Positions 2,966 to 6,200 of a DNA stretch of 6,200 bases are shown here, piece by piece. Each line of letters opens with the position of its first letter. The stretch's first letter is position 1. The stretch comes from a bacterium (GTDB taxonomy: Bacteria; Blakebacterota; Blakebacteria; Blakebacterales; Blakebacteraceae), in NCBI GenBank assembly GCA_025774205.1, contig JALGWK010000103.1, positions 1-6,200 of the forward strand, read 5' to 3'. The position numbers and the translations under genes are program-made. The notes below the pieces were generated by a model. It made no database searches. It worked only from the letters and a program-made list of their open reading frames with translations, and had not been told where the DNA came from.

Positions 2966-2996
2966 TAAAAACGCCAGAAAACCCGGGAGAACCATC

Positions 2997-4052
2997 GTGA
3001 GAAAGTTCACACAGCTCCTGCCTGGAGTGGTTGGCGCGGCTGTCATCCTGCTTGTTACTGGATGTGCAGCCGGCATCCAGCAGGAAGAACAGGTCGAACA
3101 GGAAGCGGTCCAGCCGGTCGAAGAGATCGTCGCCCAGCGGATCGTGACTCCTGAAGAGGCTGAGGCCGTTGTGGCCGAGGTCGAACCGGAGCCCGAGCCG
3201 GTCCCGGTCTACGACGAATCGGCCGATGCCGCGGCGGATATCGAAGCCGCTCTGGCTGTCGCCGCGAAGGAGAACAAGCGGGTCCTGGTCCAGTGGGGAG
3301 CCAACTGGTGCGGCTGGTGCATAAAGCTGCACGGACTCTTCCAGGATGACCGTACGATCGGACGGAAACTCCAGTACGAGTACGAAGTCGTCTACGTCGA
3401 CATCGGCCGCTGGGACAAGCATTTGGACCTGGTTGAGGGGTACGGCATCGACCTGAAGGGAGTGCCCTTCCTGACCGTTCTCGACAGCAACGGGGACGTG
3501 GTAGTCAACCAGGAGACCGGCTCACTTGAGGTTCCTATCGAGGAAGGAGCGAAGCACGATCCGGAAAAGGTGCTGAACTTCCTGACCGAGCATCAGCCGG
3601 ATTACCTCGAAGCCGAGGATCTGCTCACCGACGCGCTGGCCGAGGCGGGGAGGCTCCACAAGCGAGTCTTCCTCACCTTCGGGGCTCCCTGGTGAGGATA
3701 CTGTGGGCGGCTTGAAGCCTACCTGGCCCGTGAGGCCACGAGTGAGATCATCGGCAAGGACCTGATCGTACTGAAGATCGACGAGGACCGGACTATCGGC
3801 GGAGAAGAGATGAAAATCCGGTTTAACCAGGGACGGTCAAGCGGCATCCCCGTCTTCTTCATCCTGGAGCCGGACGGCACGGTTGTGGTCGACAGTTTCG
3901 GCCCCAGCGGCAATGTCGGTTTCCCTGTCTCCGACGAGGAGATCGCGGCCTTCGGAGAGATGATGAAGAAGGCAGCCCAGCGGATGACTGCCGGAGAGGT
4001 CGAGCAGTTAATGGAGATTCTCATTGCCATCCGGGAGTCGCGCATCAACTGA
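2997..4052 (+). CDS. Probable selenoprotein: lipoprotein with two thioredoxin-like domains, in-frame TGA read as selenocysteine
   Basis: Read through the TGA at 3693-3695, this is a 351-aa protein. A GTG start (2997) follows GGGAGA at 2985-2990. Residues 1-23 are a lipoprotein signal peptide with lipobox V-T-G-C23, so the mature protein is lipid-anchored. Residues 24-78 form an acidic, Pro/Glu-rich linker. Domain 1 (about 79-200) is thioredoxin-like, with W-C105-G-W-C108 and cis-proline loop G-V-P157. Domain 2 (about 206-335) repeats the layout: K-R-V-F-L-T-F-G-A-P-W, then TGA at codon 233, G-Y-C236, and G-I-P285. The TGA thus takes the place of the first, nucleophilic Cys, giving UXXC. The frame beyond is open for 119 codons. 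Neighbouring genes also stop with TGA, so the code is not generally reassigned. The protein probably reduces or rearranges disulfides, or handles oxidants, in the envelope. The alternative is a pseudogene made by one TGC/TGT-to-TGA change; intact downstream motifs and a hairpin after the TGA argue against that. It lies 31 bp after the acyltransferase gene. Confidence 0.82.
3693..3695 (+). other. Putative selenocysteine codon (TGA, residue 233)
   Basis: Directly preceded by the Trp codon of a G-A-P-W segment and followed by G-Y-C, this TGA lines up with Cys105 of the first domain's G-A-N-W-C-G-W-C. Selenocysteine replacing the N-terminal Cys of a CXXC motif is the commonest arrangement in known redox selenoproteins. 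A sense cysteine codon differs by only one base, so a nonsense mutation or sequencing error remains the competing explanation. Confidence 0.78.
3703..3722 (+). promoter_or_regulatory. Candidate bacterial SECIS hairpin
   Basis: GTGGGC at 3703-3708 pairs with GCCTAC at 3717-3722 (six pairs, one G-U), leaving an 8-nt loop at 3709-3716 that begins with GG. The loop starts 13 nt after the TGA. Bacterial SECIS elements lie inside the coding region just after the UGA and typically show a short stem with G in the first loop positions, which SelB recognises. The distance is towards the short end of the known range and rival pairings exist (GGC 3709-3711 with GCC 3717-3719; TGGCC 3724-3728 with GGCCA 3734-3738), so the exact fold is uncertain. 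Confidence 0.5.
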
Positions 4053-4171: not shown

Positions 4172-4828
4172 TCAGCCCCCGATTGCGCTCTCCAGGGCTT
4201 CGAGCGCCATCAGCAATGCTTCGGCGTAGGTATCGTAGGTGATGCCGTCCACGACCCAGGTACCGGAATCGGTGTCATCGAGCCCGTTGTCGGGATCGAG
4301 GAGATCGAGTTCAGCCTGGGCGTCATCGAAGTTGGCCTCTCCCAACCGATAGGAACATTGCGCGATGACGAGGCGCAGATCGCGCCAGTCGACTGAGGTC
4401 CGGTGGGAGAATGACCACGATGAGGATGATGTGAGGACTGACCTGGCGTTGCTGATCGCCTGGTTGAAATCGGGCAGGTCACGATAGACGAAAGCCAGCC
4501 CCGCATCGGCGTCGACACCGGTCAAGCCGTTCGTGTTCGCCGAGTTGAAGCTCGACTGCGCCTGGCTCAGCTCACCCCGGAGAAGACGGGCCCAGCCCCT
4601 GCCGTGATGGGCTTCCGCGTTTACGGGATTGATCGAAACAGCCTCGTTGAACAGACCGAGGGCGGCCGTGATATCTCCGGCCTCGAAGGCCGTCCAGCCC
4701 TCCGCGATCTTCTCCGCGGCGGTCGGTCCACCGGTGCCGCTCTTCTCACAGGCGGTCACCACGAAGAGCAGGAGCAGAAGCACCGGGAGGTACCACTTTC
4801 CCGTCGAAATCGTTCTGATATGTATCAC
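4172..4828 (-). CDS. TPR-repeat lipoprotein
   Basis: A 218-aa protein starting with GTG (4828-4826), with AGGAGGG 7 nt upstream (4842-4836 on the minus strand). Residues 1-27 form a lipoprotein signal peptide: a basic start, the hydrophobic run L-L-L-L-L-F-V-V, and lipobox V-T-A-C27. A short flexible G/S/T linker follows. Residues about 38-71 fit a tetratricopeptide repeat (A-x-x-G-W-x-A-F-x-A-G-D-x-x-A-A-L-x-x-F-x-x-A-V-x-x-N-P), and about 72-104 a second; a looser third unit covers about 109-142 (L-A-F-V-Y-R-D-L-P-D-F-N-Q-A-I). The rest is helical and acidic with no recognised domain. TPR lipoproteins usually act as protein-binding scaffolds at the membrane. The gene follows the S8 protease by 22 bp on the same strand and is probably co-transcribed with it; a functional link is only inferred. 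No close named family is recognised. Confidence 0.82.
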   Translation of the reverse strand: MIHIRTISTGKWYLPVLLLLLFVVTACEKSGTGGPTAAEKIAEGWTAFEAGDITAALGLFNEAVSINPVNAEAHHGRGWARLLRGELSQAQSSFNSANTNGLTGVDADAGLAFVYRDLPDFNQAISNARSVLTSSSSWSFSHRTSVDWRDLRLVIAQCSYRLGEANFDDAQAELDLLDPDNGLDDTDSGTWVVDGITYDTYAEALLMALEALESAIGG

Positions 4829-4850: not shown

Positions 4851-6200
4851 CTACTGCAGCAGCAGCACTTTACGGGTGAATACACGACCATCCACCTTCA
4901 TGGCCACAAGGTAGATGCCCGATGCCAGCCGTCGGCCATCCGCGCCCCGGCCATCCCAGCTGACCACGTGCCGACCGGCATCCTCATACCGGTCGACCAG
5001 CGTCCTGATCCACTGTCCGCGAACATTGAGGACAGTCACTTCCACCTGCGCGGGTCGGGCCAGCGTGAACCGGATCTGCGTGGTCCCGTTAAAGGGGTTC
5101 GGGTAGTTCTGGTCGAGACTGTGGATCAGGCTGCTCCCTCCGGCGTCATCCCGGGCCCGTAGCTGATAGATCCCCAGTTTCTCTACCGACGCCTCTACTA
5201 TCCGGCGTGACGCATCCGGGTAACTCTCGACCGGTATCCACCGGCCGTTCTCCCAGCGGTGGACGGCCGGTATGGCCCCACCGGCGAACTCGGGCGCCAT
5301 CGGATTCCAGGTGAATTCAAGGCGTACCCTTCTGGAGAGCGGTGCGCCGTCGGGCGATATCCGCCAGGCAGGGGAGAGGCCCCCACCGGAATCGACCGTG
5401 CTCCCGTCGAGACCGTCGATCGCCTCGGTGGCGAGCACGTACCCCGCCTCACCCAGGGATCCGGAGGGGAGGGTGACACGCAGGAGGCCGTTCGCGCTGA
5501 CCATGGTCGCTCCGGCGGCGCCGACCAGCGCGGCACTGAAGTTCCTGGTTGTGGTTGAGTCGTTCCCGGCGATATCGGTCCCGGTCACCGAGAGGGTGTA
5601 CGATCCGTCAGCCGTGAGCCGGTAGTCGCCGGCATAGACGGTTCCCTCCGAGGTCGCGATCGGTGTCGTCCCGAGGGTGACTGCGCCGGCTGAGGGAGGC
5701 GTGATCCTCACCAGGGGGGTATCGATGAGGGTTTCTGAGGGGATCGCGAAGACATCGAGAAAATCGGTCACCACGCTGTTCCTCAACAGGCCGAGGGTGA
5801 AGGAGGGACCGATCGAATCATCGAGCGCGGCGACCAGATCGACCGCGCCCTTCGCGTCCAGCTTGCCGTTCCCCCAGGTCTGGTTAGGCACCGAGCCGGT
5901 GAAGGCGTCGGTATCAGCCGAAGAGATGAGCAGCGCTTTGACCTGGGCGGCCGACAGGGTCGCGTCGGCCTGCAGCATCAGGGCCACGGCTCCGGTCACG
6001 TGCGGGGACGCCTGGCTGGTGCCCTGGCTGACGTAGTGAACCCCGTCAGGATCCTGGGCCAGCGTCTGGGGTGCCTGGATCATGTCGGCGGACATGGCTG
6101 ACATGATCCCTTTGCCGGGAGCTGAGATCTCGGGCTTCAGGCGCCCGTCCCGGGTGGGGCCATGGCTGCTGAAGTCGGCGTAATCCCCGGTCCTGTCGGT
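4851..6200 (-). CDS. Subtilisin-like (S8) secreted protease with C-terminal FlgD/sorting-type domain, N-terminus beyond window
   Basis: The frame runs from the window edge to TAG at 4853-4851, 449 visible residues. Residues about 11-32 read F-S-S-H-G-P-T-R-D-G-R-L-K-P-E-I-S-A-P-G, and G-T-S62-Q-A-S-P-H-V carries the S8 nucleophile Ser62 (codon 6017-6015). The Asp and His of the triad and the signal peptide lie outside. The peptidase domain ends near residue 110. Next come an Ig-like segment (about 115-220) and a region resembling bacterial ZU5-like modules (about 225-345; R-W-E-N-G-R-W-I-P-V near its end). Residues 357-449 form a FlgD-like/type IX-style sorting module: Q-N-Y-P-N-P-F-N, R-F-T-L, V-L-N-V-R-G, S-W-D-G-R-G, S-G-I-Y-L-V. 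Such tails guide export or surface attachment in FCB bacteria. The likely role is an extracellular or surface protease. An internal ATG at 6104 is not the start, because conserved S8 sequence lies upstream of it. Confidence 0.92.
   Translation of the reverse strand, partial: TDRTGDYADFSSHGPTRDGRLKPEISAPGKGIMSAMSADMIQAPQTLAQDPDGVHYVSQGTSQASPHVTGAVALMLQADATLSAAQVKALLISSADTDAFTGSVPNQTWGNGKLDAKGAVDLVAALDDSIGPSFTLGLLRNSVVTDFLDVFAIPSETLIDTPLVRITPPSAGAVTLGTTPIATSEGTVYAGDYRLTADGSYTLSVTGTDIAGNDSTTTRNFSAALVGAAGATMVSANGLLRVTLPSGSLGEAGYVLATEAIDGLDGSTVDSGGGLSPAWRISPDGAPLSRRVRLEFTWNPMAPEFAGGAIPAVHRWENGRWIPVESYPDASRRIVEASVEKLGIYQLRARDDAGGSSLIHSLDQNYPNPFNGTTQIRFTLARPAQVEVTVLNVRGQWIRTLVDRYEDAGRHVVSWDGRGADGRRLASGIYLVAMKVDGRVFTRKVLLLQ

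Follow-up and report, generated by a model that had tools for sequence, protein, structure and literature searches.

A thioredoxin-like frame interrupted by a single TGA

The locus described here raises the question whether a TGA triplet inside a long reading frame ends a protein or is read as an amino acid. Within the window, the whole stretch of 6,200 nt that was analysed, this frame begins with a GTG at 2997 (Table 1). It contains a single internal TGA, codon 233, and is closed by a terminal TGA at 4050–4052. The internal TGA stands at the first residue of the second of two active sites, APW-U-GYC. The frame with its internal TGA is confirmed as a genuine observation, beyond what chance would produce. 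Both halves of the translation match Thioredoxin_7 (PF13899), in two stretches with an E-value of 1.2e-22 and a score of 80.3 bits, which passes the Pfam gathering threshold of 27; PF13098 is also found among the domain matches. Aligned to each other, domains 1 and 2 are 30% identical (E 4e-12) with CGWC placed over UGYC, and domain 2 retains the GIP loop with Pro285 (3849–3851). An earlier note on this DNA had described one TGA replacing the first cysteine of the second thioredoxin domain, followed by an intact GIP loop and a normal stop, and this description is borne out by translation, Pfam and alignment alike.

Table 1. Features of the locus, in order of position; roles assigned to sequence elements are predictions.
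Feature	Position	Strand	Remarks and basis
Shine-Dalgarno-like GGGAG	2985–2989	+	7 bases ahead of GTG start; read from sequence
Putative tandem thioredoxin-like selenoprotein gene	2997–4052	+	351 aa, Sec233; translation, Pfam, homologs
Predicted signal peptide with lipobox LVTGC, lipidated Cys23	2997–3065	+	sequence; homolog N-termini
Thioredoxin-like domain 1, active site C105-G-W-C108 (3309–3320)	3204–3596	+	Pfam, model, fold match
Thioredoxin-like domain 2, active site U233-G-Y-C236	3612–3977	+	Pfam, alignment invariants, model
TGA probably read as selenocysteine	3693–3695	+	homolog column TGA/Cys only; Sec machinery in genome
Alternative hairpin GUGGGC(GGCUUGAA)GCCUAC	3703–3722	+	fold, hairpin scan
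Candidate SECIS hairpin UGGCC(CGUGA)GGCCA	3724–3738	+	33 nt after UGA; fits bSECIS geometry

The predicted structure has a mean pLDDT of 89.1 overall and of about 98 inside both domains. The best fold match of domain 1 is the Xylella disulphide isomerase 3fk8 (Z 19.5), followed by DsbD-gamma (Z about 12) and thioredoxins, in a list that chiefly covers domain 1 and scarcely domain 2. Judged by eye, the lipobox occupies residues 19–23, after an N-terminal signal sequence. Most homologs likewise begin with signal sequences recognisable by eye, which places the family outside the cytoplasm. In the second species of the genus (genome G001) the signal peptide is an ordinary one without a lipobox, and almost no homolog shows a lipobox at the starts chosen. 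The lipoprotein anchor of the earlier note thus stands as a prediction for the window protein, but this predicted anchor is peculiar to it and not conserved.

Upstream on the same strand (266–2965) are an NfeD-like gene, an SPFH/band-7 gene and a gene for an HGSNAT-like acyltransferase. On the other side, a TPR lipoprotein-like gene (4172–4828) adjoins a protease-like gene on the minus strand (4851–6200), whose product has a GTSQASPH motif and a C-terminal sorting-type domain, QNYPNPFNGTTQIRFTL. Elsewhere the order nfeD-SPFH-acyltransferase-Trx-TPR-protease is kept only in the congener G001, where the SPFH and acyltransferase genes keep their order, and there is no recurring neighbour at the homolog loci of Planctomycetota, so that gene context outside the family points to no substrate. 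A second genus of the same family (L024, G002:C273:2645–2728) has nfeD and the SPFH gene followed by only a short remnant of the selenoprotein gene, and the acyltransferase gene is absent.

Conservation of the TGA codon

The ortholog in G001, about 68–69% identical, has a TGA at the same codon. Furthermore, many full-length tandem homologs with 40–52% identity exist in the Planctomycetota. At the column of the second active site, 68 homologs, mostly from this phylum, have TGA (31) or Cys (37) and no other residue; the count omits L030/L071, a single copy in which an internal deletion removed the second active site, as well as partial or unrelated matches without the site. The motif core APW[U/C]xxC is invariant in an alignment of 32 sequences. 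Between the genome of the window (G000) and G001, codons 234–351 show a pN/pS of 0.45 (pN 0.20, pS 0.45), compared with 0.32 upstream of the TGA. Judged by these ratios, the frame downstream of the TGA is under purifying selection.

If this were an ordinary CXXC-CXXC gene that is decaying or has been miscalled, a nonsense mutation or a sequencing error would have to change only one base, as TGC or TGT is that close to TGA, and the related genome G002 indeed has only a remnant of the gene. However, the 68%-identical ortholog shares this TGA, as do 29 further homologs spread over many genomes, selection continues past it and the main Sec clade has a SECIS hairpin in common (see below), which makes this explanation very improbable. 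Still less credible is a genome-wide reassignment of TGA to Trp or Gly (code 4 or 25): it would account for one in-frame TGA being read through, but the sole alternative residue at the column is Cys, the selenoprotein gene and its neighbour both stop at TGA, no TGA interrupts the long frames nearby and the genome holds a Sec machinery. The conserved TGA, the column with nothing but Cys or TGA and the purifying selection beyond it together let error, decay and genome-wide recoding fail as explanations. Selenocysteine (Sec) at codon 233 is strongly supported by these comparisons.

Selenocysteine machinery

The window comes from a metagenome-assembled genome that is 85.9% complete and 4.8% contaminated. 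It contains a tRNA-Sec (65.9 bits with Rfam; ARAGORN agrees, anticodon TCA), selB (313 bits), selA in pieces on two contigs and selD, likewise in pieces, these genes being spread over separate contigs. One selD piece (L019, G000:C412:1–276, minus strand) reads ...LTALVTCAG-U-ASKLG...; its TGA stands where Sec is usual in SelD, which makes SelD a second selenoprotein visible in this genome. The congener also has tRNA-Sec and selB. Among 40 homolog genomes selB was found in 38, all tested TGA genomes included; the two without it are Cys genomes. This association alone is weak, as selB is also present in the majority of Cys genomes. In the genome of L029 (G006), matches to tRNA-Sec that barely pass the gathering score were identified by ARAGORN as tRNA-Ser, therefore selB was used there as evidence instead. 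The 63%-complete assembly of a related genome (L036, G003:C102) has a tRNA-Sec and no full copy of the gene.

The earlier note had read the gene as that of a selenoprotein, had considered random decay unlikely and had proposed to look for Cys or in-frame TGA in homologs and for selA, selB, tRNA-Sec and selD in the genome. All four are present, although selA and selD are fragmented, and its reading agrees with the homolog column, the TGA of the congener and the constraint past this codon.

Candidate SECIS elements

The bacterial SECIS model comprises a stem of 4–16 bp and a loop of 3–9 nt with a G within its first two positions, 16–37 nt from the UGA to the loop (PMC13188914). In the main Sec clade a hairpin 22 nt from the UGA has an AGUU loop in all 23 sequences first examined, and its six inner pairs are kept in 23 of 23, with compensatory changes such as GTTCCAGG-AGTT-CCTGGAAC. 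The Cys homologs do not form this hairpin, several of the same pairs being found in 2–4 of 19. The best model-compliant hairpins have median energies of -10.6 at 32 Sec sites versus -3.0 at 37 Cys sites (p about 1e-9, a value that overstates independence because the sequences are related). A loose hairpin rule separated the two classes poorly, accepting 27 of 27 Sec and 12 of 19 Cys genes, and hence conserved position, pairing and energy were used instead.

The AGUU hairpin is absent from the window gene and from homolog L023 in this comparison. The best compliant hairpin of these two is the candidate listed in Table 1, weak with -6.9 kcal/mol. A CGUG loop occurs at the same place in L023 and in L063, where the hairpin, equally far from the UGA, reads GUCC(CGUGC)GGAC; the first site of L133 has a CGUGA loop 30 nt away. 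At the candidate hairpin 13 of 14 codons show synonymous/codon conservation, compared with 122 of 181 elsewhere in the gene (p = 0.037, marginal). These features are suggestive only of the hairpin being the SECIS of the window gene, the exact element being uncertain; with such an energy it is not proven. The alternative hairpin has its loop 13 nt after the UGA, nearer than the model allows. A search with Rfam found no SECIS around the TGA of the window gene, and the fold of the 51 bases around it is no more stable than shuffled sequences (z -0.55).

Exchange of selenocysteine and cysteine within the family

On a tree calculated from domain 2 only, with the active-site residue masked, the distribution of Sec and Cys needs six changes, of which the starred branches force five, and a grouping of all Sec rows is rejected (p-AU 0.0006). 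Thus, Sec and Cys were interchanged about five or six times, in a tree that leaves the direction of single changes open and has some long-branched rows. The distinct hairpins suggest that Sec was gained more than once.

The first active site varies as well. One homolog, L133 (G476:C344), has in-frame TGA at residues 55 and 179, that is, UXXC in both thioredoxin domains. Seven others (L083–L086, L088, L091 and L092) have an N-terminal TlpA-like domain with GTW-U-[GP]PC and hence two Sec per chain; in L083 this upstream domain is AhpC-TSA/Redoxin by Pfam. Several Sec members, and many relatives, have lost the cysteines of domain 1 but kept the Sec domain, which makes the second site the constant element of the family. 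A Cys and a Sec site on one chain had appeared as an unusual design in the earlier note. The combination is present, but it is not a single oddity: it belongs to a family whose second site holds either Sec or Cys, in which one member has Sec at both sites and others are fused to a second Sec domain.

Possible function

It is highly likely that the gene encodes an exported selenoprotein with two thioredoxin-like domains, CXXC followed by UXXC, which probably acts as a thiol-disulfide reductase or isomerase. Sec is a stronger nucleophile than Cys and has a lower pKa. The same genome encodes a DsbD (L026) with transmembrane and C-terminal Trx domains. From the PF13899 and PF13098 domains, the fold likeness to 3fk8 and DsbD-gamma and the presence of DsbD, we infer that the likeliest role is that of an extracytoplasmic reductase or isomerase, probably kept reduced by DsbD. 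SelB and Sec-tRNA(Sec) would decode the UGA, guided by a stem-loop just 3' of it, a step well supported by comparison. The product would then be held outside the cytoplasm as a predicted lipoprotein, where the Sec233–Cys236 pair would probably provide fast reduction or isomerisation of disulfides in exported proteins or of oxidised substrates; electrons would presumably reach it through DsbD.

A possible, if rather doubtful, elaboration is an intramolecular relay, in which DsbD reduces the CXXC of domain 1 and the electrons pass on to the UXXC of domain 2. Both motifs are on one chain, domain 1 resembles DsbD-gamma and DsbD is encoded in the genome, but several Sec relatives are without the cysteines of domain 1 and hence domain 2 can work alone. 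Slightly more doubtful is the wider proposal that both active sites switch between sulfur and selenium in evolution, that SECIS elements were gained independently and that CXXC and UXXC form such an in-chain relay in an exported protein. Programmed termination, with a one-domain CXXC protein made when selenium is low and the full protein when it is high, we consider improbable. Sec decoding is in general incomplete and domain 1 is complete ahead of the UGA in the model; however, no sequence feature is specific to a two-product scheme, and in the many relatives without a domain 1 CXXC a truncated product would have no active site.

Relation to known selenoproteins

Two selenoproteins with a single UXXC, a thioredoxin (PF00085) and a thiol:disulfide interchange protein (PF13098), are listed in a catalogue from 2026 (PMC13188914, Table 1). 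The catalogue also includes a Trx7/PDZ protein whose motif is CXXU, as well as several multi-Sec proteins; it makes no mention of PF13899. The first two share with the window protein the Trx fold, Sec as first residue of UXXC and Cys homologs, and with the main Sec clade of its family a bacterial SECIS downstream, for which the window gene has a weak candidate, but are listed with one Sec motif, whereas the window protein has tandem Trx_7 domains, CXXC plus UXXC and export signals. The Trx7/PDZ selenoprotein (NF041199; PMC13188914) also has a Trx_7-type domain but combines CXXU with PDZ, and it is not among the NCBIfam matches of the window protein. None of these matches exceeds its cut-off. 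The best, TsoB (NF045694; 46.6 bits, below the cut-off of 805), arises from the DsbD-like Trx domain and belongs to a rhodanese/DsbD fusion of other architecture. The C-terminal (gamma) domain of DsbD and 3fk8 have a fold like domain 1, but both are single domains with Cys and no Sec. No catalogued family with the tandem architecture was found; an earlier mention is possible among the candidates from two planctomycetes in PMC4807772. Summarizing, thioredoxin-like UXXC selenoproteins are well known, and the tandem family is apparently uncatalogued.

Standard gene callers are expected to split such genes at the UGA. The finding points to a fairly widespread family of exported tandem-thioredoxin selenoproteins in Planctomycetota and in one sparsely sampled phylum. 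The repeated interchange of Cys and Sec at one codon, accompanied by different stem-loops, would offer a natural series for the origin of SECIS elements inside coding sequence and for what selenium gains over sulfur outside the cytoplasm.
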